Origin: Gemmatimonadota bacterium
GTDB lineage: Bacteria > Gemmatimonadota > Gemmatimonadetes > Gemmatimonadales > Gemmatimonadaceae
Direction: 5' to 3'
Length of the DNA: 64,000 nt
Assembly: GCA_014192065.1 (NCBI GenBank)
Contig: BJHH01000001.1
Coordinates: forward strand, 434,001 to 498,000
This document shows positions 34,889-49,579 of this stretch, piece after piece. A program made the position numbers and the translations under genes. Each line of letters starts with the position of its first letter. Within the stretch, counting starts at the first letter, position 1. Under the pieces are notes generated by a model that did not search any database, was not told the DNA's origin, and worked only from the letters and a program-made list of their open reading frames with translations.

Positions 34889-37219
34889 GTGTTCGGCGCG
34901 CTCTTCGAGTGGCTCTTCAAGTACCGCCCAGCGGTCTTCGAACAGGGAGACTTCGCGCTCGGCGCGCCGCTGTCGGTCGTCGTCATCGTGCTCGTCGCGG
35001 CGGCCATTTCGGTGCCGGCGGTCCTCTCCTATCTGCAGGTGAAGGGCAAGAGCACGGCCCGCGACCGGACCGTGTTGACAGCGTTGCGGGTCGGCGCGCT
35101 GCTGGTCCTGATCGCCTGCCTCTTCCGGCCGATGCTGCTCCTCTCGGAGGCGGTACCGCGGCGCAACTTCATCGGCGTGCTGCTCGACGATTCGCGCAGT
35201 ATGCGCATCGCCGATCGCGGCACGGGTACGGGCGCCCGCACACGCGCAGACTTTGTGCGTGACACGCTTGGCGAACGCTCCGAGTTGCTGCGGCGCCTGC
35301 GCGAAAAATTTCAGGTGCGACTCTTCCGGTTCGGCGGGTCCTCCACCCGTGCCGACAGCGCCGGAGCGATGACCTTCGACCAGCGGGAGACGCGACTCGT
35401 CGACGCCGTCGAGGCGGCCCGTCAGGATCTCGAGGCGGTTCCGCTCTCCGGTCTAGTGGTCGTCACGGACGGCGCGGACAATGCGGCCACGGAAGTGAAC
35501 GACGCGCTGCTTGGGTTGCGCGCGCGTTCGGTGCCGGTGTTCACGGTTGGGCTCGGCACAGAACGGTTTACGCGCGACATCGAAGTGCAGCGGGTCGAGG
35601 CGCCCCGACGCGTGCTCAAGGGCGGGACAGTCGTGGCCGATGTCCTGATCCGCCAGCGCGGGTTCGACAACCAAACAGTGCGGCTCATCGTCGAGGACGA
35701 AGGTCGGATCGTCGCGCAGGTCGATGTATTGATGCCGGCCGGCTCCGACGCGTCGCCGGTGCGGGTGACGGCGACGCTCGGCGACCCGGGCCCACGCGTA
35801 CTCACCTTTCGCATTCCGGTGCAGGACCGCGAGCAGGTCACCGAGAATAACGCGCAGCGGGCCCTCGTGCAGGTGCGCGACGCGCGTGAGAAGGTGCTCT
35901 ACGTCGAGGGCGAGCCGCGGTACGAAGTGCGCTTCATTCGCGAAGCCGTCGAGGCGGACTCCAACGTCCAGCTGGTCGTGCTGCAGCGCACCGCTGACGG
36001 GAAGTTTCTGCGCCTCAACGTTGACTCGGGCGACGAACTCGTTGCCGGATTCCCGAAGACCCGCGCGGAACTCTATGCCTACACGGCGATCGTGCTCGGC
36101 AGCATTGAGGCGAGTTTCTTCACGCACGACCAGCTCACGATGCTCGCCGATTTTGTCAGCGTGCGCGGCGGCGGGTTGCTGCAGCTCGGCGGCCGACGGG
36201 CCTTTTCGGAGGGTGGCTATGCCGGCACCCCGCTCGCCGACGCGATGCCGGTTGTGGTCGAGGGGCCGGCGGTCGCCGACAGCCTGACCTTCTTTGCGGA
36301 TCTCACCGCCACGCTCACGCCGGCCGGCATGGGCCATGCGGTAACGCAGATCGGCACGGCGCGAGTCTCAGCGGCCGACAAGTGGAAAACATTGCCAGCC
36401 GTGACATCGGTGAATCGGATCAAAAAGGTCAAACCGGGCGCGGTAGTGCTGGTCTCTGGCACAGTCCCGACGGGCGGGCGCGCGGGAATGCCGGGCGAGG
36501 TGACATTCACGTACGAGCAGCCGATCGTGGTGTACCAGCGATTCGGTCGCGGGCTTTCGGTGGCGATGCCGGTGCAGGACGACTGGCAGTGGAGGATGGG
36601 CGCTGAGGTCGCAATTGACGACCAGTCGTTCAAGACCTTTTGGCGCCAGATGCTGCGCTGGATCACGAGTGACACGCCTGGGCGGGTTGAGGCTCACGCG
36701 ACCCCGGATCAGGTGAATCCGGGATCCACAGTGCAGTTACGCGCGGTCGTGGTCGACAGTGCGTTCGAGCGACTGAATGACGCGAAGGTCGCGGCGACAG
36801 TGTTCGCCCCGTCTGGCGCGCGGCACGACCTCGCGCTCGACTGGGCGGTGGAGCGGGACGGCGAGTACCGCGGGACGTTCGCGCCGACGGAGGAAGGGAT
36901 CCATCTCGTGCGGATGACAGCGGCGACGACCTCCGGCACGGTGACCGACACGACGGTGATCCGTGCGGCGCCGCTCGACGCCGAATACACCATGGCGGAA
37001 ATGCGGCGTCCACTGCTCCAACGTATCGCGGACGAGACTGGCGGGCGCTTCTACACCGCTGAGACGCTCGGCACGCTGCCCGAAGACATCGCGATGACCA
37101 AGCGCGGCGTGACGGTGGTGAATCAGATGGATCTCTGGGACATGCCGATCATCTTTCTACTCTTGGTCGGGTTGGTGTCGGCGGAGTGGGGATACAGAAA
37201 GCTGAGAGGCCTCGCATGA
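34889..37219 (+). CDS. Membrane VWA protein with glutamine-amidotransferase-like domain (MoxR cluster)
   Basis: 776 residues starting at a GTG. Two N-terminal membrane segments (about 25-48 and 65-85), then a VWA domain with a MIDAS-type DDSRS (GVLLDDSRSM) and a following VVVTDGADN. Next is an Ig-like region and a class-I glutamine-amidotransferase-like fold (VLYVEGEPRYEVRFIREA ... FVSVRGGGLLQLGGRRAF). A last hydrophobic segment (IIFLLLVGLVSAEWGY) anchors the C-terminus. This layout is known from membrane proteins in MoxR/Bat-type gene neighbourhoods; biochemical function is not established. First gene of the cluster. Its stop overlaps the next start as ATGA. Confidence 0.82.
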   Translation: MFGALFEWLFKYRPAVFEQGDFALGAPLSVVVIVLVAAAISVPAVLSYLQVKGKSTARDRTVLTALRVGALLVLIACLFRPMLLLSEAVPRRNFIGVLLDDSRSMRIADRGTGTGARTRADFVRDTLGERSELLRRLREKFQVRLFRFGGSSTRADSAGAMTFDQRETRLVDAVEAARQDLEAVPLSGLVVVTDGADNAATEVNDALLGLRARSVPVFTVGLGTERFTRDIEVQRVEAPRRVLKGGTVVADVLIRQRGFDNQTVRLIVEDEGRIVAQVDVLMPAGSDASPVRVTATLGDPGPRVLTFRIPVQDREQVTENNAQRALVQVRDAREKVLYVEGEPRYEVRFIREAVEADSNVQLVVLQRTADGKFLRLNVDSGDELVAGFPKTRAELYAYTAIVLGSIEASFFTHDQLTMLADFVSVRGGGLLQLGGRRAFSEGGYAGTPLADAMPVVVEGPAVADSLTFFADLTATLTPAGMGHAVTQIGTARVSAADKWKTLPAVTSVNRIKKVKPGAVVLVSGTVPTGGRAGMPGEVTFTYEQPIVVYQRFGRGLSVAMPVQDDWQWRMGAEVAIDDQSFKTFWRQMLRWITSDTPGRVEAHATPDQVNPGSTVQLRAVVVDSAFERLNDAKVAATVFAPSGARHDLALDWAVERDGEYRGTFAPTEEGIHLVRMTAATTSGTVTDTTVIRAAPLDAEYTMAEMRRPLLQRIADETGGRFYTAETLGTLPEDIAMTKRGVTVVNQMDLWDMPIIFLLLVGLVSAEWGYRKLRGLA

Positions 37220-38241
37220 GTGACCGTGGCGCGGGCCGTCGTCTCCTCTCATCGGTGTTCGCGGCTCTGGTTGCCGCGGCTTGTTTCACGGCATCGGCCC
37301 AGGCCCAGACGCACGTCCTGATCGCTAGCGGACTTGGCGGCGAGCCGCGATTCAGCCAACGGTTTCGCGCACTCGGCGCCGACCTGGCTTCGGCGCTGCA
37401 GCGCAAATACCGGATCGCGGCACCCAATATCGGCTGGTTCGGCGAGGATTCGACCTTTGCCGACTCACACTATCGCGGCCGCTCCACGCGCGATGCGCTC
37501 GAGAAGGAGATCGCGGCGATGCGCGCACGCGCCAAGGCGGGCGAGCAGATCGTCGTGATTTTCATCGGGCACGGTGCCGGGCAGGAGGGCGAGTCGCGGG
37601 TGAGCCTTCCCGGGCCCGACGTGACGGTCGGTGACGTGCAGCGGTGGATGGCAGGCTTCACGGAGCAGCGTGTCGCTGTCGTCAATCTGACGAGTGGCAG
37701 CGGCGACTTCCTGCCGATTCTTGCCGCGCCGGGGCGCGTCGTGATCACGGCGACGAAAACAGCGTTCGAACGAAACGAATCGCGGTTCGCGGAATTCTTC
37801 GTCAAGGCGTATACCGCCGACGTCGCGGACGTGGACAAGGACGGCCGCGTCTCACTGCTGGAAGCGTTCCGCTACGCGGCCCGCGAAACCAAGCGCGTCT
37901 ACGACGACGCCACGAAGCTGCAGACAGAACATGCCCAGCTCGACGACAATGGGACCAAGCAGAACACCGCTGAGCCGACGGGCCGCGACGGGCAGGGGTT
38001 GCTCGCGCGCCGATTTTTCTTCGAGGCGCCAGGCGCGCCAGGCGCACCGATCGCGGCCGGCGGCGACCAGGGCATCGCGGCGCTCTATCACGAGCGATTC
38101 GCACTCGAGGGCAGGATAGACTCGTTGCGCGCACTGAAGCCGAAGCTCACGCCAGCGCTCTACGACGCCGAGCTCGAGATCGTGCTCGTGTCACTGGCCA
38201 GGAAGTCGCGCGAAATCCGCAAGGCGGAGGGGCGGCCGTGA
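37216..38241 (+). CDS. Exported caspase/legumain-like protein lacking the expected catalytic Cys
   Basis: 341 residues with a Sec leader (ends ASAQAQ). The fold signs of clan CD peptidases are present: IVVIFIGHGAG with the catalytic-type His, then about 45 residues later AVVNLTSGSGDFLPIL, where the family usually has a Cys (often TSCSG or similar). Here the position appears to be Gly or Ser. After VVITATK comes DVDKDGRVSLLEAFRYA, which satisfies an EF-hand-like calcium loop (Asp-x-Asp-x-Asp-Gly ... Glu). A helical C-terminus follows. Likely a pseudo-protease or binding protein of the periplasm. Overlaps both neighbours by 4 nt. Assignment rests on motif pattern only. Confidence 0.65.
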   Translation: MSDRGAGRRLLSSVFAALVAAACFTASAQAQTHVLIASGLGGEPRFSQRFRALGADLASALQRKYRIAAPNIGWFGEDSTFADSHYRGRSTRDALEKEIAAMRARAKAGEQIVVIFIGHGAGQEGESRVSLPGPDVTVGDVQRWMAGFTEQRVAVVNLTSGSGDFLPILAAPGRVVITATKTAFERNESRFAEFFVKAYTADVADVDKDGRVSLLEAFRYAARETKRVYDDATKLQTEHAQLDDNGTKQNTAEPTGRDGQGLLARRFFFEAPGAPGAPIAAGGDQGIAALYHERFALEGRIDSLRALKPKLTPALYDAELEIVLVSLARKSREIRKAEGRP

Positions 38242-40895
38242 GGCAGAGTCTGCGCTTCCCCACGGTCGTCCTGCTCGTGACCGGCGCCCTGTTACCGTCG
38301 CGGCTGCTCTCGCAGCAGCGCCAGGCGATCGAGTCATTCAGCGAGGCTCGTATCGCGATCGCTATGGGCAAATACGCCGAGGCGACGGCCTACCTCGAAC
38401 GCCTGCCCAGGACCGATTCGACCTGGATGGACGCGCAGGTCGAGCTCGTGCGCGCGTTCGCGCTCATCAGCAAGTACGACGACGCCGAGCGGGTCGCGCG
38501 GCAGGCCGTCGCGGCGCCGAACGGAAAGGAGGCGCTCACGGCGCTTGGCGAACTGATGCGCACGCGCGGCCGGCTCGCCGCGGCCGATTCCGCGTTTGCG
38601 CGCGCGGTGGCAGAGCATGCCTCCGACAGTCTGATGGCGTCACTCAACCTCGCGTTGCTTGCCAAGGCGCGCGGGGACAAAGCGGTTCCCGCACGCGGCT
38701 TGGATCACTTTATCGACGTCTACAATTCCGCCGCCGGAAGCCTCACCAGTCGCGAGATGATGGCGGTGGCGATTGCCTGCCGGGAGCTCGGCGAGACGAA
38801 CGCCGAGCTCTTCAAGGACGCGCTCAAGGCGTTCGACCGTGCCATCACGCTCGACCCGGCGAACATCGACGCACGTGTCGCCCTCGGCGAGCTCTTCCTC
38901 GAGAAGTACAACGGTGCCGAAGCGCAGCGGACGCTGGACGAGGTGCTGCAGATCAATGCGTCGCACCCCGGAGCGTTGGTGGCCGCCGCACGCCGCCTCG
39001 TGTTCGACGGCCAACCGGGAGCCGATTCGCTGTTGGCGACGGCGCTCGCCGTGAGCCCCGAGTTTGTTCCCGCGCGCCTGATGATGGCGCGCGGCTCGAT
39101 GGATCTGGAGCGATACGCCGACGCGGCGCGCGATGCGGAACGCGCGCTGAAGGCGAATCCATCCGATGCCGGCGCGCTCGCGACGTTGGCCGCCGCGAGG
39201 TTCGTGGGCGGAGATCAGCGCGCCTACGCCGACGCGCGGGCCCGGGCGCTTGCGCTGAACGCGCACGACGCCGGCTTTTTCGTTACGCTCGCCGAAGCGG
39301 CGGGCCGGGTGCGCCGCTATGCGATCGCGGCGGATTTCGCCCGGCAGGCCATCGCGGCCGATTCAGCCAACTGGAAAGCGCATTCGGTCCTCGGCATGAA
39401 CCTGCTTCGGCTCGGCAAGATCGCCGACGGACGGCAGAGTCTCGAAGTCGCGTTCAAGGGCGATCCGTTCGACGTCTGGGTAAAGAACACGCTCGACCTG
39501 CTCGACACGTTCAAGAACTATGACGAGTCGACGAGTGAGCACGCGGTCTTCATGATCGAGAAGCAGGAGTCGGCGCTGCTCACGATCTACCTCAAGGATC
39601 TCGCGGAAAAGGCATACGCGAAGTTCCAACAGCGGTACCAGTACGCCGCGCCGCCACCGGTCAGGATCGAGGTGTATCGCAGCCACGCCGATTTTTCGGT
39701 GCGCACGGTCGGACTGTCTGGGCTCGGCGCGCTTGGTGTGAGCTTTGGCACGACGCTGGCGTTTGACTCGCCGGCGGCAAAGGACGCCGGCCCATTCAAC
39801 TGGGCGTCGACGGTGTGGCACGAGCTTGCGCACACCTTTACGCTCGGCTCGACCGATCACCGGATCCCGCGTTGGCTGTCCGAAGGGCTTTCCGTCTGGG
39901 AGGAACATCAGGCGCGCGCTGGATGGGGCGCGAGTGTGTCGCCCGGCTTCCTCGAGGCCTATCGCGCCGGAAAGCTCGTCCCGATCAGCCGGATGAACGA
40001 CGGTTTTATGCGCCCAACGTACCCCGAACAGATTGGTTACTCGTACTACCAGGGTTCGCTCGTGTGCGACCTCATCGTGAAGGATTGGGGCGAGAAGGCG
40101 ATCACGGGGCTGCTCGCCGAGTACCGCGGGGGGCGCACCACCGACGAGGCGTTTCAGAAGGTGACCGGGATGGACATGAAGGCATTCGATCGCCGGTTTG
40201 ATGCGTATATGAAGGAGCGGTTTGGGCCGGTGCTTGAGGCGCTCGCGCTGCCAGGGCCGGAATATCCGGCTGGAATGGGGGCGGCGCAGTTTCTGGCGCG
40301 TGCGGATTCATTTCCCGCGAGCTATCGAGCGCAGGTGATGGCCGCCACGCCGCTGGTGCGGGCGCGGATGCACGATGAGGCAGTCCGAGTACTCGAGCGC
40401 GCCCATGCGCTCTTCCCGGCGTTCGGGGGCGACGACTCACCGGCCAGCAACCTCGCGGTGCTGTACCGCGCGAAGGGCGACACGGCGAAAGAAATCGCGA
40501 TGCTCAAGGTCCTCACGTTGTCGGATGAGTCGAACTACGCGGCGAACATGCACCTCGCCTCCCTGCTGATCGTGCGCGGCGACACCGCCGGCGCGCTGGA
40601 AGCAAGCGAACGCGCGCTCTTCATCAATCCATTCGCGCCCGAACTCCACGTCGTGCTCGCGCGACTGTACGAGGCGCGCGGCGACCAGGCGATGCGCGTG
40701 CGCGAGCGCGAGGCGCTCGTGGCGCTCGACCCCGTGGACAAGTCGGAAGCGCTCTACGAGCTGGCCGTGGCGTATCGCGCCGCCGGCGACCTCGTGAAAG
40801 CCAAGCGCGCGGTATTACGCGCGCTGGAGGATGCCCCCAATTTCGAGCGGGCCCAGGACCTATTGCTCGCCATCGTCGACGGGAGGAAGCCGTGA
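38238..40895 (+). CDS. TPR protein with C-terminal peptidase-MA-like zinc metalloprotease domain
   Basis: 885 residues, GTG start overlapping the previous stop. After a leader (VVLLVTGALLPSRLLSQ) come many TPR-type helical repeats (for example ALKAFDRAITLDPANIDARVA) to about residue 420. Then comes a metalloprotease domain with HELAHTF and a downstream third-ligand candidate in RWLSEGLSVWEEH, followed by more TPRs. Another HELAH protein with the same domain type lies at 10087. The combination suggests a periplasmic protease recruited by TPR contacts to the membrane complex encoded around it. Ends with a 4-nt overlap with the DUF4159 gene. Confidence 0.82.
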   Translation: MRQSLRFPTVVLLVTGALLPSRLLSQQRQAIESFSEARIAIAMGKYAEATAYLERLPRTDSTWMDAQVELVRAFALISKYDDAERVARQAVAAPNGKEALTALGELMRTRGRLAAADSAFARAVAEHASDSLMASLNLALLAKARGDKAVPARGLDHFIDVYNSAAGSLTSREMMAVAIACRELGETNAELFKDALKAFDRAITLDPANIDARVALGELFLEKYNGAEAQRTLDEVLQINASHPGALVAAARRLVFDGQPGADSLLATALAVSPEFVPARLMMARGSMDLERYADAARDAERALKANPSDAGALATLAAARFVGGDQRAYADARARALALNAHDAGFFVTLAEAAGRVRRYAIAADFARQAIAADSANWKAHSVLGMNLLRLGKIADGRQSLEVAFKGDPFDVWVKNTLDLLDTFKNYDESTSEHAVFMIEKQESALLTIYLKDLAEKAYAKFQQRYQYAAPPPVRIEVYRSHADFSVRTVGLSGLGALGVSFGTTLAFDSPAAKDAGPFNWASTVWHELAHTFTLGSTDHRIPRWLSEGLSVWEEHQARAGWGASVSPGFLEAYRAGKLVPISRMNDGFMRPTYPEQIGYSYYQGSLVCDLIVKDWGEKAITGLLAEYRGGRTTDEAFQKVTGMDMKAFDRRFDAYMKERFGPVLEALALPGPEYPAGMGAAQFLARADSFPASYRAQVMAATPLVRARMHDEAVRVLERAHALFPAFGGDDSPASNLAVLYRAKGDTAKEIAMLKVLTLSDESNYAANMHLASLLIVRGDTAGALEASERALFINPFAPELHVVLARLYEARGDQAMRVREREALVALDPVDKSEALYELAVAYRAAGDLVKAKRAVLRALEDAPNFERAQDLLLAIVDGRKP

Positions 40896-41740
40896 GCAGT
40901 CGTACGATCATTCGGTGTCTCGCGCTGGCCGCGTGCGCCACGCTGTCCGTAGTGCAGGACGCCGGTGCGCAGCGTGGCGGACGACCGCAGCGTGGCCGCG
41001 GCTTCGACATGGGTGCGCTCGGCGATCCGAACGGGTTCTACGTGCCGCCGGACTTCATGGGCAATCCGCCGTACGACGGGCGATTCACCTTCGCGCGCAT
41101 CAAATACCGCGGCTACGGTCGCTGGTCTGGGCGGGAAGGACCGGGGTGGTCGCACGACTACCCGGACGCCGATGTGCACTTCGTGAAAATCGTCCGCGAG
41201 ATCACATCGATGCGGCCGTTTACCGATGCCGGTAAAGTCCTCGGCGGTGCGATCGTCGCGCTCGACGAACCATTGCTCTTCAAGTATCCGGTCGCATACC
41301 TGTCGGAGCCGGGCGGCTGGTTTCCGAACGCCGCCGAGGCGATGGGAATGCGGAGCTACCTGAGCAAGGGCGGTTTCGTCATCGTCGACGACTTCAACTA
41401 CCAGGACTGGTCCACCTTTGAAGCGGCGATGACCAAGGCCATGCCGGAGCTGAAACCGATCAAGCTCACCGGCAAGGAGCAGATCTTCGACTCGTTCTTC
41501 AAGGTGGACATGGCCAAGCTCCGCCGCGGCTACAGCGGCGGCGGGTCCGGCGGTGGCGCGGAGTTCTACGGCTACTTCGACAAGAACGATCCCAAGCGAC
41601 GCCTCATGATGCTGGTCTGCTACGGCCAGGACATCGGCGAGTCGTGGCAATGGTCGGGCCAGGGCTTTATGCCAGTGGATGTGTCCAATGAGGCATTCAA
41701 GCTCGGTGTGAACTTCGTCATCTACGCGCTTACGCACTGA
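40892..41740 (+). CDS. DUF4159 protein (MoxR-cluster component), exported
   Basis: 282 residues, GTG start overlapping the previous stop by 4 nt, leader ending QDAGAQ and a short Arg/Gly-rich stretch. The DUF4159 domain is recognisable by FTFARIKYRGYGRW at its start, then DYPDADVHFVKIVRE, a LSEPGGWFPNAAEA-like core, GGFVIVDDFNY and GVNFVIYALTH at the end. DUF4159 proteins occur repeatedly next to MoxR, DUF58 and VWA genes and have a glutamine-amidotransferase-like fold; their task is unknown. 61 nt separate it from the MoxR gene, so an extra promoter there is possible. Confidence 0.88.
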   Translation: MSSRTIIRCLALAACATLSVVQDAGAQRGGRPQRGRGFDMGALGDPNGFYVPPDFMGNPPYDGRFTFARIKYRGYGRWSGREGPGWSHDYPDADVHFVKIVREITSMRPFTDAGKVLGGAIVALDEPLLFKYPVAYLSEPGGWFPNAAEAMGMRSYLSKGGFVIVDDFNYQDWSTFEAAMTKAMPELKPIKLTGKEQIFDSFFKVDMAKLRRGYSGGGSGGGAEFYGYFDKNDPKRRLMMLVCYGQDIGESWQWSGQGFMPVDVSNEAFKLGVNFVIYALTH

Positions 41741-41801: not shown

Positions 41802-42830
41802 GTGCCATCCAACGACTCCGCCTCTCTCGAATCCGCCGCCGACATCGCCCTCGCCGATCGCCTGAAGGTCGGTATCGGTACTGTCACAGCCGAGCTGCAC
41901 AAACTCATCGTCGGACAGGAGCAGGTCATTGACCAGGTGTTGCTCTCGCTGCTCGCGGGCGGCAACAGCCTGATCATCGGCGTGCCCGGTCTCGCCAAGA
42001 CCCTGCTGATTCACACGATCTCACAGGTGCTCGACCTCAAGTTCAATCGTATCCAGTTCACTCCCGATCTGATGCCGAGCGACATCACCGGCACGGACAT
42101 CATTCAGGAAGACGAACATGGGCGCCGCACGCTCGTCTTCACCCCCGGGCCAATCTTCGCGAACATCGTGCTCGCCGACGAAATCAACAGAACGCCACCG
42201 AAGACACAGGCTGCGTTGCTGGAAGCGATGCAGGAGCACCGCGTGACGGTGCAGGGCAAGACCTACCCGCTCGTTGAGCCGTTCCATGTATTCGCGACAC
42301 AAAACCCGATTGAACTCGAGGGCACCTACCCGCTGCCCGAGGCGCAGCTCGACCGCTTCATGTTCAACATCGTGATGGACTATCTCAACGAGGACGACGA
42401 GGTGCTCGTCGTGACCCGCACGACGGCGACGATGAAGCAACAGTTCCAGCACGCGATGACCGGCGACGACGTGCGCGCCTTTCAGGCGCTTGTGCGCCGC
42501 GTACCCGTGGCCGACGCTGTCGCGCGGTACGCCGTCAAACTGGCCCGCGCGAGCCGACCGGGACCCGGCGCAGCCAAGTTCATCAATGAGTGGGTGTCGT
42601 ATGGCGCCTCGACCAGAGCACCACAGCAGTTGATCCTTGGCGGCAAGGCACGCGCACTGATGCAGGGCCGCTACCATGTGAGCTTCGACGACGTGCGCGC
42701 CCTCGCGGGTCCCGTAATGCGCCACCGCGTGCTGATGAACTTCCACGCGGAGAGCGAAAAGGTGACTAGCGATCAGATCATCGCTCAGCTCCTCGAGGCC
42801 GTTCCGGTGCCCGGCTCGGGGATGCGGTAG
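41802..42830 (+). CDS. MoxR-family AAA+ ATPase
   Basis: A cytosolic AAA+ chaperone-like ATPase of 342 residues, GTG start. Seen: HKLIVGQEQVIDQVLLSLL, Walker A in GVPGLAKTLL, Walker B in IVLADEINRTPPKTQ, the sensor-1 stretch FATQNPIELEGTYPLPEAQ, and LDRFMF. Relatives work with VWA-domain proteins to mature or assemble envelope or metal-containing targets. Here it sits directly upstream of DUF58 and a BatA-type VWA gene, the classic arrangement. Confidence 0.95.
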   Translation: MPSNDSASLESAADIALADRLKVGIGTVTAELHKLIVGQEQVIDQVLLSLLAGGNSLIIGVPGLAKTLLIHTISQVLDLKFNRIQFTPDLMPSDITGTDIIQEDEHGRRTLVFTPGPIFANIVLADEINRTPPKTQAALLEAMQEHRVTVQGKTYPLVEPFHVFATQNPIELEGTYPLPEAQLDRFMFNIVMDYLNEDDEVLVVTRTTATMKQQFQHAMTGDDVRAFQALVRRVPVADAVARYAVKLARASRPGPGAAKFINEWVSYGASTRAPQQLILGGKARALMQGRYHVSFDDVRALAGPVMRHRVLMNFHAESEKVTSDQIIAQLLEAVPVPGSGMR

Positions 42831-42837
42831 TCGTCAG

Positions 42838-43854
42838 ATGACCGCTTCGCCCCGCCCGACCGGCACCGAATTCCTCGACCCCGCAATCCTCTCGCGGATC
42901 GGGAACCTCGAGTTCGTCGCCAAGGCCGTGGTCGAGGGGTTCATCAACGGGCTTCATCGGTCACCGAACCTCGGGTCGTCCACCGATTTCGCCCAGCACC
43001 GGCAGTACGAGCCCGGCGACGACATTCGACGTGTGGACTGGCGGCTCTTCGCACGCACCGACCGCTTCTATGTGAAGCAGTTTGAGGCCGACACCAACAC
43101 GAACTTTCTCGCGGTTCTCGATGTGTCGCCGTCAATGCGGTACCAGGGGGCGTCGGGCGCTGGCGTGAGTAAACTCGAATACGCCTGCTTCCTCACGGCC
43201 GCGTTGGCCTACTTCTCGAGCGGACAGCGTGACCGGGTGGGCCTCGCCACGTTCGACCATGGCATCGTCGATTACGTGCCGCCCTCGGCGCGGCATCTCC
43301 AGCAGGTGCTCTACGCCCTCGACCGCGCGAACAGGGCGGGTAGGGTGCGTGGGCCGGGTGAGTTCGCGTCACTCGAGCGCTCCGCTGGCTCCGACGCGGT
43401 TGCCTCGCGCGCCGTAGCCGGCGAGAAGCCCACTGGCCGTGCCTCACTCCTCGCGCCGATGAAGAAGCTCGCCGAGTCGGTACGGCGTCGCAGTATCGTG
43501 CTCCTGATCTCGGACCTCTACGAAGATCCCCAGCAGGTGTTCGATGCGGTCGATCACCTGCGCGGACGCGGCAACGACCTGATTGTATTCCATCTGCTCG
43601 ACAAGGACGAGATCAGCTTTCCGTTCACCGACGCAAGCAACTTCGTCGACGTGGAGACGGGCGAGAAGCTGCCGCTCGTGCCCGACTACCTGCGCAAGGA
43701 ATACCAGCGCATCGTCAAGGCGCACACCGACAAGCTGGACACCCTCGCGCGCGAACGGCGGATCGACTACACGCTGTTCGACACCTCGCGCCCCATCGCC
43801 GACGCGCTCTACGCCTACCTCGGCGCGCGCGAACGCTTCAACCGAGTGCGCTAG
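42838..43854 (+). CDS. DUF58 domain protein (VWA-like partner of MoxR)
   Basis: 338 residues, 7 nt after moxR. The DUF58 signature is complete: YEPGDDIRRVDWRLFAR, then FYVKQFEADTNTNFLAVLDVSPSMRY, whose D-x-S-x-S forms a MIDAS-like metal site. No leader or membrane span is seen, so it is cytosolic. In MoxR operons DUF58 proteins are proposed adaptors between the ATPase and membrane VWA proteins. Confidence 0.93.
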   Translation: MTASPRPTGTEFLDPAILSRIGNLEFVAKAVVEGFINGLHRSPNLGSSTDFAQHRQYEPGDDIRRVDWRLFARTDRFYVKQFEADTNTNFLAVLDVSPSMRYQGASGAGVSKLEYACFLTAALAYFSSGQRDRVGLATFDHGIVDYVPPSARHLQQVLYALDRANRAGRVRGPGEFASLERSAGSDAVASRAVAGEKPTGRASLLAPMKKLAESVRRRSIVLLISDLYEDPQQVFDAVDHLRGRGNDLIVFHLLDKDEISFPFTDASNFVDVETGEKLPLVPDYLRKEYQRIVKAHTDKLDTLARERRIDYTLFDTSRPIADALYAYLGARERFNRVR

Positions 43855-43860
43855 AGCCCG

Positions 43861-45942
43861 ATGTCCCTACTCGCGCCCTGGTTTCTCGCCGGACTCGTCG
43901 CCATCGGCGTGCCGATTGCGATCCACCTGATCAATCGTGAGCGGAAGGCGGTCGTGCCCTTTCCGTCGCTGATGTTTCTGCAGCGCGTGCCGTACCGCTC
44001 AGTGCGGCGCCAGAAACTGCGGCACCTGCTGCTGTTCGCGCTGCGTTGCCTGGCGCTCTTTCTGTTCGTGGCTGCGTTCGCGCGCCCCTTCTTCGCCAAG
44101 CCGATCACGGCCGCGGCATCCGGTGGCGCAAAAGAACGGGTGATTCTGCTCGATCGCTCGTACTCGATGGGTTACGGCTCCCGTTGGAAGGCAGCGCAGG
44201 ACTCGGCGCGCGCGGCCGTGGCCAACATCGGCGCACAGGATCGCGCGACGCTGGTGAGCTTTGCCAACGAGGCGTCCGCGCTCACGGAGCCGACGGCCGA
44301 TCGGACAAACTTCGAACGCGCGATTGCCCGCGCGACGCCGAGTGCGGAGGGTACGCGCTACGGCCCGGCGCTCAAGCTCGCCGGCGATATCCTCGGCGCG
44401 TCCAACATGCCCAACCGCGAGGTCGTGCTCATCAGCGACTTCCAGCGGCGCGGCTGGTCGACGCAGGCTGAGATCCGGCTGCCCGCCGGTGTGACGTTTA
44501 CGACGATGGATGTCTCGGGCCAGGACGTGGCCGATGTCGCGGTGACGGCGGTGTCGACCGATCGTGCCAGCGATGAAGACGGCGCGCCAGTGACGGTGAC
44601 CGCGCGGCTGTCGAATACCGGTACCGTGGCGCGCACACTCGACGCTACGCTCGAGCTGGCCGGGCGTGTGGTGGGATCGTCACGCGTGACCGTGCCGGCG
44701 GCTGGCTCGGCGCAGGCCCAGTTTGCCCCGACGACGGTGCCAGGCGGCGTGACACGCGGACTGGTGCGGGTTCCCGGCGATGCGCTCGCCGCCAATGATC
44801 AGTTCTTCTTTACACTTGCGCCCGACGAAGCGGTCAGCGTGCTCATTGTCGAGCCGATACAGGCCAGGGTGAACCAGGCCCTCTATCTGCGTCGCGCGCT
44901 CGAGATTGGCAATCACCCGCGCTTTCGCGTGGACGTCAAACGTGTGGACTCGATCACGCCGCGCGACTTCGCGGCGCGGGGGCTCGTGGTGCTCGACGAA
45001 GTCGCTCCGCCTGGTGGGGAGCTCGGCGTCGCGCTGCGTGCAGAGTTGCGCGCGGGAGTCGGCCTTTTGGTGGTGCCGGGCGATCTGGCCGCCGATCGTA
45101 CGCCCAAGGAATGGGCGGACGTGCTGCGCTTCACCGTCGGTGATATAGTGAACCGCGCAGGAGCAGGCGGCGCGCGGCTTGCGCGCTTGTCGTATGCCAG
45201 CCCCGTGTTTGAGGCGTTCGCCGCTTCAGGCACGGGCGATTTCGCCTCGGCGCACATCTTTCAGCACCGCATGCTCCGCGTGGTCGGCGATAGCGGAATC
45301 CTGGCGTGGTACGACGACGGTACGCCAGCGCTCGTCGAACGGTCGGTGGGGCAAGGGCGCGTGCTGATCTGGTCGTCGTCGATTGACGACTACTGGACCG
45401 ACTTGCCGATGCAGCCGGTCTTTCTTCCATTGATGCGCCAGATCGCGCGCCATACGGGCCGCTTCAGCGATTCGAAGCCGTGGTTCACGGCGGGCGACGT
45501 GCTCGACCTCTCGCGGCACGGCGAACTCACGACCAGGCTTGTCGTCAAGGCGGCGCCGGGCGCGGAAGCGCCGGTGCTTTCGATCGTGTCGCCGACCGGC
45601 AAGCGCGTACGGTTCAGCGACAGTGTGCATACGGCGACGCTGACGGAACGTGGCTTCTATGAGCTACGCACGAATGCCACGGCCGAAGGCAGCGGCCGAC
45701 CCGTGGCGGTGAACGTGGATCCAGCGGAGTCGGATCTCGCGCATGTTGAGCCGCGCGAACTGGTCGCCGCGGCGTTGGCGACCGCAGGGCCAGCGTCGAG
45801 CGCCTCAGGTGCAGATGCCGGCACGGCCGCCGAGCGCGAACGCGGGCAACGGGTGTGGTGGTATCTTCTGGTTGCGGCCTTCCTGGTGCTGGCGGCGGAG
45901 ACGATGCTCTCCAACCGCTTGTCCGGAGCGGTTGCTCAATGA
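43861..45942 (+). CDS. BatA-type membrane VWA protein
   Basis: 693 residues. The N-terminus (FLAGLVAIGVPIAIHLINRE and a second helix LLFALRCLALFLFVAAF) is the typical BatA/aerotolerance-family double anchor. Then comes a VWA domain with LLDRSYSMGYG (MIDAS). The middle has Ig-like strands and an amidotransferase-like segment, and the C-terminus ends in a third helix (WWYLLVAAFLVLAAETML). It starts 6 nt after the DUF58 gene. It resembles, and may be paralogous to, the first gene of the cluster at 34889. Confidence 0.9.
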   Translation: MSLLAPWFLAGLVAIGVPIAIHLINRERKAVVPFPSLMFLQRVPYRSVRRQKLRHLLLFALRCLALFLFVAAFARPFFAKPITAAASGGAKERVILLDRSYSMGYGSRWKAAQDSARAAVANIGAQDRATLVSFANEASALTEPTADRTNFERAIARATPSAEGTRYGPALKLAGDILGASNMPNREVVLISDFQRRGWSTQAEIRLPAGVTFTTMDVSGQDVADVAVTAVSTDRASDEDGAPVTVTARLSNTGTVARTLDATLELAGRVVGSSRVTVPAAGSAQAQFAPTTVPGGVTRGLVRVPGDALAANDQFFFTLAPDEAVSVLIVEPIQARVNQALYLRRALEIGNHPRFRVDVKRVDSITPRDFAARGLVVLDEVAPPGGELGVALRAELRAGVGLLVVPGDLAADRTPKEWADVLRFTVGDIVNRAGAGGARLARLSYASPVFEAFAASGTGDFASAHIFQHRMLRVVGDSGILAWYDDGTPALVERSVGQGRVLIWSSSIDDYWTDLPMQPVFLPLMRQIARHTGRFSDSKPWFTAGDVLDLSRHGELTTRLVVKAAPGAEAPVLSIVSPTGKRVRFSDSVHTATLTERGFYELRTNATAEGSGRPVAVNVDPAESDLAHVEPRELVAAALATAGPASSASGADAGTAAERERGQRVWWYLLVAAFLVLAAETMLSNRLSGAVAQ

Positions 45943-45958
45943 GCGGGGAGGCGTGCGA

Positions 45959-48900
45959 ATGAAGGGAGTGCACGGGGGCCTAGCCGGTGGGAGTCTCAAC
46001 GGTGACCTGCTTGGCAAAGCGGTGCGAGACGTGCGCCGGCGTTGGCGCCTCAAGCATGCGCTGCGCGGCGCCGCGATTGCCCTGACCGCGATCGCTGCGC
46101 TCTTCATCCTCCTCTCGATCGCGATGCGTGGCGCACACTACGGTGCCGGCGTCGTCCTGCTTGCGCGGGCGGCCGCCGTTGTCGGTTCACTCGCCGCGCT
46201 GTGGTATCTCGTGGTGCGCCCATTGCGTGCATCGCCCGACGATTCCCATGTCGCGCTCTACGTCGAAGAACATGAGCGCGCCCTCGGTGGCGCATTCATG
46301 ACGGCGGTCGAAGTGAACACACGCGCGGCCGACCGTGTCGCGGCCGGGGGTATCGCGGCGAGGCTCATTCGCTCCGCGCTCGACGGGCTGCGCGGGGCTG
46401 ACTCCGGCAAGCGGGTGGATTCCGGCGACCTAAAGAAAGCGTTGGCGATGTTCGCGTTCGCACTCGTCGGGGTCGCCCTGATCTTCGTAAGTGGGCCAAC
46501 GACGTTGCGTACCGGCGCCCAGCTGCTGTTGACGCCGTGGGCCGGTTCGGACGCCAGTCGCGCCTTTGCCATTCAGGTGACGCCGGGCGATGTCACGATG
46601 GCCAAGGGTGGCGACCAGCTGGTGTCCGCGACGCTCAATGGCTTCACCGCAGCGCGCACGGAGTTGTTGGTGAAGGGTGAAGGCGCTGCCGGATGGACGC
46701 GGCTGGATATGGCGGCCGATTCGACCGGACGCTGGGCGTTCCGATTGTTCGACGTATCGGTGCCAACGGAATATGCCGTCGAGGCCGCGGGGATCCGTTC
46801 GCCGACCTACAGGCTCGTGGTCGCACCGATTCCGTACGTCGCATCGATGGACCTCGAGTACCGGTATCCCGCCTATACGCAGCTCGCGAACCGGCAGGTC
46901 GACAGCACCGGCGATATCGCGGCGCTGGTCGGCACGATGGTGCGCGTACGTGTGACGTCGACGGTGCCCGCCAAGGGTGGCCAGTTGATCGTGGACGGCG
47001 GCGACACGCTGCGCCTCGTTCCCACCGCCGACGGGTCGCTCGTCGGGATGCTGCGCGTCACGAAGAGCGGGTTCTATAAGGTTGCTCTCGAGGGCAACGA
47101 CGGCCGCTCGGTGAGCGCGTCGCTCGACTACACCATCGACGCACTCCCCGATCGCCAGCCGTCGGTCGCCATCGGGCGTCCCGGCCGCGACCTGAAGGTG
47201 CTCTCCGTCGACGAAGTATTCTCGGATACGAAATCCGAGGACGACTACGGCGTGTCCCGCCTCGAACTCACCTATTCGGTGAACGGGGGTGCGGAGCGCA
47301 CGGTCGGACTCTTCTCCGCTACGGCGCGTGCGCTGCGCGAGGTGGCCGCCGGGCACACTTTCATGCTCGAAGATCTGAAGTTGGAGCCGGGCGATCAGGT
47401 AGCGTACTACGCCAAGTCCACCGACAACAACGTCGTGAGCGGGCCAGGTTCGGCCACGACCGATATGTACTTCCTGACGGTACGTCCGTACGACATGGAC
47501 TATCGGCAGGGTCAGGGTGGTGGCGGTGGTGGCGGCGGCGGTGGAGGTGGAGGTGGGCGCGCCGGTCAGCAAGACAATCCAAGCCGCCTCTCCGAACAGC
47601 AACGCCAGGTGATTTCCGCGACCTTCAACCTCGCGCGCGACTCCGCGACACTCGACGCCAAGACGCTCGCAGAAAATGTGGCAACGGTGCGCCTCGCGCA
47701 GCAGAAGCTCAAAGAACAGACGGCCGTGCTCGCCGAACGACTCGTGACGCGCGGTATCACGGCGCAGGATTCCGGTTTCCGGAAAATCGCGCAGATTTTG
47801 CCGCGCGCCATTGCGCAGATGGATTCGGCGGAACGAAAACTTGTACCGCCATCGCAGCGGTCAGCGTTGCCCAGTGAGCAGAAGGCGCTCACCGAACTCG
47901 GACGCGCCGAGGCGGTGTTCCGCGAGATACAGATTCAGCAACAGCAGCAGGGCGGTGGCGGTGGAGGCGGTGGTGGCGGTGGCGCCAATGCTGAGGATCT
48001 CGCCGACATCTTTGAGTTGCAGCAGGACCGGTTGCGCAATCAGTACGAGGCCGTGCAGCGTGGCGAGACCGCCGAGCAGCGCCAACAGGATTCCACAGCG
48101 TCTACGCTCGACGAAACCGCTGAGAAACTGCGGCAGCTCGCGGCGCGCCAGATGCAGCAGGACATGCGGGCGCAGCGCAAAGCCGACAGCCTCGGTCAGA
48201 TGGGCCAGAGCGGCGCTTCCAGCGGCGACAATGGGCGGCAACTGGCGCAGGAAGCGGAACAGGCGGCGCGACAACTCGAACGGCTCGCGCGTGAACGGCA
48301 GTCGCAGCCACTCGCCGATGCGGCCCGCCGGCTCCAAGACGCGGCCGACCAGATGCGGCAGTCGGCGGCCAACGGACGGCAGGGCGCGTCCAACGCGCGG
48401 AGCGCGGTAGACCGGCTCAACGAAGCGCGGCGCCTGCTCGAGCAGGAGCGGAGCGGCGAGTCGGGGCGCGACATCGAAGCGGCGCAGCAGCAACAGCGTC
48501 GGCTTGCCGAAGCGGAGCAGCAGGTGCAGGACGGGATTAGCAAGCTCGAAGACCCCAAGGCGCGCCGTGATTCGGTGCAGCGTGCGATTCAGGCACAGAA
48601 GAATCAGATGGCTGGTGAGGTGCGTGCGCTGACGGCGCAACTCGACCGCCTCGCGACGGAGCATGCGCGTGAACAGCCGAACGTGTCGCGCGCGCTGCGT
48701 GGTGCGGCCGATACGCTGCGCAATAATCGACTCGCCGAACGCATGCAGATGTCGGGTCAGGCTGTGGCCACGGCACCGCAGCAGTGGCTCAATGAAATCG
48801 AAAAACAAATTGGCTCGGAGATCGGCGAACTCGGCCGACGGTTACAGCAGGCGGCGGGCGCGGCCGAACAGGGACAGCAGGCGCAGGCTGGGGCGCAGGC

Positions 48901-49579
48901 GGCTGATCGGATGCGCGATCTGGTGCGCGGGCTCGAGTCAGTGCAGGAGCGGATGCGACAGGAGCAGGAGCGCCGGTTGGGCCAGGGGCAACAGCAGCAG
49001 GCGCAGGGACAACAGCAGGGACGCCAAGGTCAGGGCCAAGGGCAGGGACAAGGACAGGGCCAAGGGCAGGGACAAGGACAGGGTGACGGCCGTGGGCAGG
49101 GTCAGCAGGGCCAGGGCCAGGGCCAGGGTCAGATGGGCAACGGCGGTGGCAACGGCGGTGGCAACGGCGGTAGCGGAAATCGCCAGTTCAATAACGGAGG
49201 CGGCCAGCCGGGCGCCAACACCGACCGGTTCAACCCGCAGCAGGCGGCGCGTGAACTGCAGCAACGCATCGCCGACGCCGAGGCCATCGCGCGCGACCTG
49301 CGCCGCCAGGGCCAAGACGTCGCGCCGCTCGACCGCGCGATCGAAGGGATGAAGATGGCGTCTACCTTCACCTCGCTCGAGGACAAGCGCGCCGAAGCGA
49401 TGTTGCGCACGCAGGTGGTCGAGGGGCTCAAGGCCTACGAGTTCGCGCTCCGCCGCGCCAATGGCGACGACGCGGGCAATCGCGTGCTCCTCGAGCGATC
49501 GGGTGGAGTGCCACCGGCGTTCAAGGCGATGGTCGAGGAGTACTACCGCGCGCTCTCGAGGACGCCGAAAAAGCCGTAG
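45959..49579 (+). CDS. Giant three-TM coiled-coil protein (DUF4175-like) with Gln/Gly repeats
   Basis: 1206 residues; the start is chosen for GGGGAGG about 8 nt upstream. Three membrane helices (about residues 38-58, 64-86, 150-170), Ig-like extracytoplasmic domains, then from about residue 510 long Gln/Arg/Ala-rich coiled-coil-like helices interrupted by polyglycine (about 520-535 and 665-680). Next is a Gly-Gln repeat block (about 1005-1065) with Asn/Gly runs, and a conserved-looking C-terminus (ADAEAIARDLRRQGQDV ...). Similar large proteins end MoxR/VWA operons in several phyla. Probably a scaffold spanning the envelope. Last gene of the cluster; msrB follows after 61 nt. Confidence 0.8.
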   Translation: MKGVHGGLAGGSLNGDLLGKAVRDVRRRWRLKHALRGAAIALTAIAALFILLSIAMRGAHYGAGVVLLARAAAVVGSLAALWYLVVRPLRASPDDSHVALYVEEHERALGGAFMTAVEVNTRAADRVAAGGIAARLIRSALDGLRGADSGKRVDSGDLKKALAMFAFALVGVALIFVSGPTTLRTGAQLLLTPWAGSDASRAFAIQVTPGDVTMAKGGDQLVSATLNGFTAARTELLVKGEGAAGWTRLDMAADSTGRWAFRLFDVSVPTEYAVEAAGIRSPTYRLVVAPIPYVASMDLEYRYPAYTQLANRQVDSTGDIAALVGTMVRVRVTSTVPAKGGQLIVDGGDTLRLVPTADGSLVGMLRVTKSGFYKVALEGNDGRSVSASLDYTIDALPDRQPSVAIGRPGRDLKVLSVDEVFSDTKSEDDYGVSRLELTYSVNGGAERTVGLFSATARALREVAAGHTFMLEDLKLEPGDQVAYYAKSTDNNVVSGPGSATTDMYFLTVRPYDMDYRQGQGGGGGGGGGGGGGGRAGQQDNPSRLSEQQRQVISATFNLARDSATLDAKTLAENVATVRLAQQKLKEQTAVLAERLVTRGITAQDSGFRKIAQILPRAIAQMDSAERKLVPPSQRSALPSEQKALTELGRAEAVFREIQIQQQQQGGGGGGGGGGGANAEDLADIFELQQDRLRNQYEAVQRGETAEQRQQDSTASTLDETAEKLRQLAARQMQQDMRAQRKADSLGQMGQSGASSGDNGRQLAQEAEQAARQLERLARERQSQPLADAARRLQDAADQMRQSAANGRQGASNARSAVDRLNEARRLLEQERSGESGRDIEAAQQQQRRLAEAEQQVQDGISKLEDPKARRDSVQRAIQAQKNQMAGEVRALTAQLDRLATEHAREQPNVSRALRGAADTLRNNRLAERMQMSGQAVATAPQQWLNEIEKQIGSEIGELGRRLQQAAGAAEQGQQAQAGAQAADRMRDLVRGLESVQERMRQEQERRLGQGQQQQAQGQQQGRQGQGQGQGQGQGQGQGQGQGDGRGQGQQGQGQGQGQMGNGGGNGGGNGGSGNRQFNNGGGQPGANTDRFNPQQAARELQQRIADAEAIARDLRRQGQDVAPLDRAIEGMKMASTFTSLEDKRAEAMLRTQVVEGLKAYEFALRRANGDDAGNRVLLERSGGVPPAFKAMVEEYYRALSRTPKKP
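49033..49080 (+). repeat. Perfect 24-bp tandem duplication in the Gln/Gly block
   Basis: Two identical 24-bp units (starting GGGCCAAGGGCAGGG) lie head to tail, inside a longer degenerate CAGGG-type array from about 49000 to 49135 that encodes Gly-Gln repeats. Identity of the units points to recent duplication and possible length variation between strains. Confidence 0.8.

Follow-up and report, generated by a model that had tools for sequence, protein, structure and literature searches.

A stretch of 64,000 nucleotides from the genome of a Gemmatimonadota bacterium (assembly GCA_014192065.1, contig BJHH01000001.1, positions 434,001 to 498,000; here called the window) encodes a legumain-like pseudo-protease, in which the catalytic histidine of clan CD peptidases is kept and the catalytic cysteine is lost in every homologue examined. 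The protein is probably an exported, catalytically dead member of the legumain fold that serves a Bat-type MoxR-VWA complex as a periplasmic peptide-binding adaptor. That it is a pseudo-protease is well supported; its site, partner and ligand are what we infer. The reading is based on the predicted fold, the invariant histidine, the family-wide loss of the cysteine, the conserved cleft loops, an acidic loop and the position of the gene in its operon. Pseudo-proteases of the caspase fold as such are already known. New here is a stand-alone legumain-like pseudo-protease with a signal peptide (read by eye), found across at least 170 of 346 genomes and coupled to a gene for a VWA protein. Such a protein provides an evolutionary handle on Bat-type MoxR-VWA clusters, which have no settled function, and is a defined cluster component whose ligand can be sought directly.

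Loss of the catalytic cysteine

The homologue set began with 178 loci; matches at E ≤ 1e-30 gave 171 rows, and collapsing identical rows left 153 distinct homologues, all from Gemmatimonadota. Three short rows (L017 and two of L052) were left out of this set, and the L051 row in it is one piece of a gene split over two frames. Legumain has EACESG and Arabidopsis metacaspase 4 has DSCHSG where, in hmmsearch alignments, the family has nltSaSG. Column 160 also takes the Cys of L053, L058 and L060, three caspase-like proteins of the phylum that have a Cys and match the profile weakly. Ser160 of the window protein, within VNLTSGSGD, therefore occupies the position of the nucleophile. This column contains Ser in 134 homologues, Thr in 16, Pro in 2 and Asp in 1, and Cys in none. 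The cysteine has been lost and not moved: the aligned mature region of 150/153 homologues contains no Cys at all, the exceptions having a single Cys at columns 54, 106 and 192, and a relocated Cys was rejected on this ground. His119, within FIGHGAG, is found in 153/153 homologues and is followed by Gly120 at a fraction of 1.000; D205, E216 and S162, the last of these beside S160, are also invariant. On a tree built without column 160, this column undergoes at least 8 changes. These changes, and the range of Ser, Thr, Pro and Asp, are more readily reconciled with a non-catalytic position than with a nucleophile.

Conservation is higher in the cleft loops than elsewhere in the domain. Mean Jensen-Shannon conservation is 0.62 for the cleft loops (those after strands 1, 3 and 4, the PGPD loop and the R174-N187 stretch) versus 0.44 for the remainder of residues 32-280. 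Since the nucleophile is gone and the cleft is conserved, binding is the best explanation of this conservation.

Predicted fold and family relationships

An AlphaFold model of the pseudo-protease, built from a 17-row alignment, has a mean predicted local distance difference test (pLDDT) score of 78.9 and a predicted template modelling (pTM) score of 0.71. Legumain is ranked top by Foldseek (4n6o, E 1.6e-7) and is the best match of VIA-align (4nol, Z 20.7, root-mean-square deviation (rmsd) 2.8, 208 residues aligned), where metacaspase 4 gives Z 19.1, rmsd 3.4 and 215 aligned residues. The structural matches cover residues 28-275. A caspase-hemoglobinase (clan CD) fold with legumain as the nearest structure is thus supported by the predicted model.

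Sequence searches give a less uniform picture. Scans of the single window protein against Pfam and NCBIfam gave nothing meaningful, with no Pfam family matched, and phmmer against the PDB returned two chance-level matches only (E 1.1 and 1.6). Among 57 family members, Peptidase_C13 (PF01650) matches 23 at E ≤ 0.1, Peptidase_C14 matches one (best 0.013) and NF047832, the NCBIfam model of EACC1-associated caspases, matches 10 (best 6.6e-5). When ten members were scanned singly against PF01650, one passed the gathering cut-off (L181, 36.8 versus 22.8 bits), L193 stayed below it and eight had no match at E ≤ 0.001. Among solved structures, metacaspase 4 is matched best by the family profile, at 0.002 with a 17-row profile and 7.9e-5 with a 57-row profile, the aligned part of the latter reaching only up to the His loop. 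Legumain is found at 0.082 with the 17-row profile and is unlisted at E ≤ 1 with the 57-row profile, where metacaspases are the sole clan members. By sequence, either C13 or C14 may be the nearest family, and the term legumain-like follows the fold. A Peptidase_C13 search of the bacterium's own genome gave no match at E ≤ 1, which means that this model misses the window gene itself, and a Peptidase_C14 search there gave no match at E ≤ 1e-10; within these limits no active paralogue is proposed as a partner in that genome.

An earlier note on this DNA, made from its letters, had described a caspase/legumain-like protein in which FIGHGAG supplies the clan CD His and VNLTSGSGD lacks the expected Cys. 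Each of these claims agrees with the results above, with the qualification that a hydroxyl residue (Ser or Thr) replaces the Cys in 150/153 homologues. The note had put forward the model comparison and the alignment of orthologues as tests able to refute its reading; a clan CD fold and a mature region without Cys elsewhere (150/153) were found, and the reading was not refuted. In the profile search against C13 and C14 that it had also proposed, the window protein itself has no match, and of 57 family members 23 match C13 and one matches C14.

Gene order and distribution

Gene order was checked in L018 and 39 fetched regions, 40 flanked loci in all. A gene for a VWA protein stands directly upstream of the pseudo-protease gene in 39/40 of them, the gap between the two being estimated at -36 to 120 bases; at the sole other locus, L086, a contig end cuts there. 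Downstream, a gene for a TPR protein with a Peptidase_MA_2 domain (TPR-MA) is found in 37/40 loci. The three loci without it are L096, which ends at a contig end, and L076 and L089, which contain other open reading frames (ORFs); in L080, TPR-MA lies about 1.4 kb away from the pseudo-protease gene. HExxH is kept in 36/36 loci where the TPR-MA stretch could be aligned, out of the 40. As the VWA gene stays in place where TPR-MA is absent or has moved away, the VWA protein is taken as the closer partner. DUF4159 is present in 34/40 loci and MoxR in 31/40, both counts being limited by flank length.

The loci that depart from this order can be described from their translations. In L076 (2690-4495, minus strand), an OLD-type ATPase/nuclease-like ORF with an overlapping start replaces TPR-MA, and in L089 (3300-4481, minus strand) an exonuclease-like ORF does so together with other ORFs. 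In L080 (5569-6795, plus strand), two ORFs, one coiled-coil and the other resembling a Vsr endonuclease, separate the pseudo-protease gene from TPR-MA. The longest DUF4159 match (26-35% identity) is located upstream of the VWA gene, and not downstream of TPR-MA, in 12 of the 34 loci (L076, L079, L080, L083, L085, L088, L089, L095, L096, L099, L100 and L101). Either DUF4159 changes place in these 12 loci or a paralogue stands there; the pair of VWA and pseudo-protease genes is constant.

Among 41 genomes (the bacterium's own and 40 relatives), the gene is found in 17, and all 17 have the VWA gene. One further genome, G010, has a VWA gene, which runs off the contig end. Across the phylum, the family is found in at least 170 of 346 genomes, a lower bound because at most six candidates per genome were scored. 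Initially 173 genomes matched; G096, G116 and G206 were removed as weak matches to the other caspase-like proteins L054, L055 and L053. A scan of genome contigs returned one locus with the same protein as in G008, so that kinship outside the phylum was hardly probed. A search of plasmids at E ≤ 1 returned one record, from Gemmatirosa kalamazoonensis (G103; L051 and L057), whose copy on the 1.1-Mb plasmid NZ_CP007129.1 spans two frames. The copy of G284 (L052) is split next to a run of N, an assembly gap.

The features of the window are summarized in Table 1. The pseudo-protease ORF is intact, with an ATG at 37216 and a stop at 38239-38241. Its start overlaps the stop of the VWA gene (ATGA at 37216-37219), its stop overlaps the start of TPR-MA by four bases (38238-38241), and the junction of TPR-MA and DUF4159 overlaps likewise at 40892-40895. 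The cluster may continue with an ORF of 1278 amino acids (45743-49579) that overlaps the BatA-type gene at its end and matches DUF4175 weakly, under the cut-off. The predicted structure of the upstream VWA/GATase protein is poor (pLDDT 59.9, pTM 0.40). By eye, its GATase1-like region has LGGRR where we take class I amidotransferases to have their Cys elbow, and from its sequence this region may also be a dead hydrolase fold. PADLOC at E ≤ 0.01 gave no match for the pseudo-protease or for its VWA and TPR-MA neighbours and two weak matches for MoxR (2.4e-4 and 0.0012); an anti-phage system was rejected on this result. Partial Pfam, NCBIfam and PADLOC scans of the cluster named no VMAP, iSTAND, FtsH or beta-propeller component, although no search was aimed at such components.

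Table 1. Features of the pseudo-protease gene and of the neighbouring gene cluster in the window.
Feature	Position	Strand	Basis
Legumain-like pseudo-protease gene, 341 amino acids	37216..38241	+	ORF; clan CD fold by AlphaFold, Foldseek and VIA-align; 153 distinct homologues
N-terminal signal peptide, residues 1-30 (AQA|QT)	37216..37305	+	Read by eye; pLDDT below 50 for residues 1-28
His119, GHG motif, position of the clan CD catalytic His	37570..37572	+	153/153 homologues; directly after strand 111-117
Ser160, position of the catalytic Cys	37693..37695	+	Alignment with the Cys of legumain and metacaspase; column counts, n=153
EF-hand-like loop DVDKDGRVSLLE, residues 205-216	37828..37863	+	Between helices 190-200 and 214-231; relaxed pattern 153/153
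Second acidic loop EHAQLDDNGTKQN, residues 238-250, degenerate in the window copy	37927..37965	+	D.[DN].DG motif in 92/153 homologues
C-terminal helical hairpin, residues 285-337	38068..38226	+	Model helices 285-310 and 313-337; outside the legumain-like domain
Upstream gene with VWA and GATase1-like regions, 776 amino acids	34889..37219	+	Weak Pfam matches (VWA, GATase1_like), below cut-off
Downstream gene, TPR protein with Peptidase_MA_2 metallopeptidase domain, HELAH	38238..40895	+	Pfam
DUF4159 gene	40892..41740	+	PF13709 1.9e-36
MoxR-type AAA+ ATPase gene	41802..42830	+	AAA_3 3.2e-61
DUF58 gene	42838..43854	+	PF01882 1.2e-42
BatA-type VWA protein gene	43861..45942	+	PF07584 1.4e-19; VWA_2 8.8e-16

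Acidic loops

The loop DVDKDGRVSLLE follows the pattern D.[DN].DG.[VIL][ST]..E, which never appeared when the mature sequence was shuffled 100,000 times. Its ligand positions 1, 3, 5, 9 and 12 are kept in 153/153 homologues under a relaxed pattern, and the canonical pattern with Gly at position 6 is found in 74/153. D207 and D209 are D in 145 homologues and N in 8. A comparable loop is present in 7 of 22 Cys-bearing caspase-like loci of the phylum and absent from 15, these loci having been chosen by a pattern of our own and including the overlapping pairs L124/L142, L126/L143 and L134/L148. In the seven, the loop is located 60-67 residues past the Cys motif, after what by eye is a similar helix; the spacing in the window protein is 41. 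Because the loop also occurs in Cys-bearing proteins, it singles out no calcium-dependent pseudo-enzyme and provides no evidence for a calcium sensor. On the tree, the second acidic loop (EHAQLDDNGTKQN in the window copy) is labile, with at least 17 changes of state.

The earlier note had regarded the EF-hand-like loop as intact, and the loop is conserved as described. It had gone on to propose a calcium-dependent pseudo-protease acting as scaffold or sensor. Of this proposal the pseudo-protease stands and a scaffold is plausible, being favoured by what the operon suggests. Calcium dependence and a sensor role are not supported, given the like loop in Cys-bearing loci and the signal peptide (by eye), which points to the periplasm, a compartment normally replete with calcium.

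Proposed role and alternative explanations

The protein would be exported and located in the periplasm, where the retained cleft may hold a peptide segment of a partner. The likeliest partner is the VWA/GATase-like product of the gene immediately upstream, or else a client of that product. The C-terminal helical hairpin, in which Y316 and E321 are conserved at fractions of 0.980 and 0.993, could form a second contact. In this position the pseudo-protease would connect the VWA protein with the TPR-metallopeptidase and with the intracellular MoxR ATPase machinery. The likeliest role of the EF-hand-like loop is to carry a structural Ca2+ that would brace the C-terminal half of the fold. Several points weigh against an adaptor of this kind. 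The invariant His and the hydroxyl residue at the Cys position in 150/153 homologues are more than a dead site strictly needs, and the Jensen-Shannon score puts S160 within the top 40 columns; the kept His and the hydroxyl bias hint at residual chemistry. The cleft regions behind the difference in conservation were our own choice from topology. The residues that we take to form the specificity pocket of legumain are absent, by eye, at the aligned positions. Bat-type clusters also have no settled function, and part of a study of Leptospira biflexa describes deletion of all bat genes as leaving growth, shape and oxidative-stress tolerance unchanged (PMC3557215).

An active enzyme has to be weighed against these hints. 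The Cys nucleophile may have been swapped for Ser or Thr, giving a His-Ser dyad and a serine-type hydrolase in the caspase fold, which we regard as quite unlikely. Such an enzyme would agree with the invariant His, the hydroxyl bias, the rank of S160 by Jensen-Shannon score, the conserved cleft loops and the invariant S162. It is opposed by the Pro or Asp in 3/153 homologues, the Thr in 16/153 and the repeated changes of the column on the tree, and by plain identity S160 ranks only 62nd. A more specific form, a Ser/Thr-type hydrolase or transferase in which His119 and Ser160 (or Thr) act on a single dedicated substrate of the MoxR-VWA machine in the periplasm, is more doubtful again. If true, a Ser/Thr-type centre in this family would mean non-cysteine catalysis in clan CD, of which we know no earlier case. 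Precedent for an inactive site with the same substitution is found in SERA5, a papain-like protein with Ser at the Cys position, for which part of the literature reports no detected proteolytic activity (PMC4671257).

Alternatively, the cleft could act as a competitive decoy that binds substrates or propeptides of another protease, such as the TPR-metallopeptidase, and shields or presents them. We consider this unlikely: the gene adjoins one with HExxH in all 36 aligned loci and shares a four-base start/stop overlap with it in the window, but TPR-MA is replaced in L076 and L089 and displaced in L080, while the VWA neighbour stays. A calcium sensor, in which reversible Ca2+ binding at the loop would switch the pseudo-protease, is quite improbable. 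The fully conserved ligand positions, the second loop in 92/153 homologues and the calcium requirement of metacaspases, described in passages of one paper as widespread and not universal (PMC4357240), would suit it. The occurrence of the loop without loss of the Cys, the calcium-rich location implied by the signal peptide and the many state changes of the second loop, degenerate in the window, do not, and the stabilising Ca2+ sites that the same passages describe for gingipains favour a structural ion (PMC4357240). A decaying gene or a chance motif without function is scarcely credible. The Gemmatirosa kalamazoonensis plasmid copy in two frames would fit decay, but the presence of the family in at least 170/346 genomes and the strong conservation over 153 distinct sequences led us to reject a pseudogene. 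The peptide-binding adaptor is the preferred reading.

Comparison with known systems

In the open-licence literature searched, neither DUF4159 nor a Gemmatimonad together with legumain is mentioned. The window protein resembles legumain and the C13 family in its fold, in the GHG loop, in the PNED loop (PGPD in the window protein) and in the C-x-S-G frame. It differs in being bacterial, in having no catalytic Cys (0/153) and in its signal peptide (by eye) and C-terminal helical hairpin. As the defining Cys was tested for and not found, the family is not placed among the clan CD peptidases. Metacaspases (C14) and EACC1-associated caspases provide the best profile match among solved structures (metacaspase 4), a fold at Z 19.1 and the NF047832 matches in 10/57 members, whereas the window family lacks the Cys and matches Peptidase_C14 in 1/57.

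Among pseudo-enzymes, pseudo-orthocaspases are alike in their substituted dyad, often with Ser at the Cys position, and are presumed inactive with the fold and pocket modelled as kept, according to sections of one paper (PMC6426788). The commonest dyad given there is Tyr-Ser, with 90% in Alphaproteobacteria or Cyanobacteria (PMC6426788), whereas the window family has an invariant His and a MoxR-VWA cluster. The same sections describe pseudo-orthocaspases as absent from photosystem-bearing Gemmatimonadetes (PMC6426788). A section of a prokaryotic survey from 2012 counts one putative metacaspase in Gemmatimonadetes, with a Cys-His dyad that is not intact (PMC3501461). This single count may be a member of the window family; the section describes no such family, operon or fold. 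SERA5 of Plasmodium likewise has Ser for the catalytic Cys, binds peptides and has no essential enzymatic role, as part of the source reports (PMC4671257); its papain-like structure is another fold, and its organism and context are unrelated. A further comparison is offered by the MoxR-vWA ternary conflict systems, in which approximately 70% of the caspase domains in the effector position are described, in part of that work, as inactive and are proposed to be dominant-negative or peptide-binding (PMC7159879). Those are effector domains of VMAP systems (PMC7159879), whereas the window family is a stand-alone protein with a signal peptide (by eye) in a Bat-type cluster. The inactive caspase domains of the conflict systems are thus a parallel to the window family and not the same thing.

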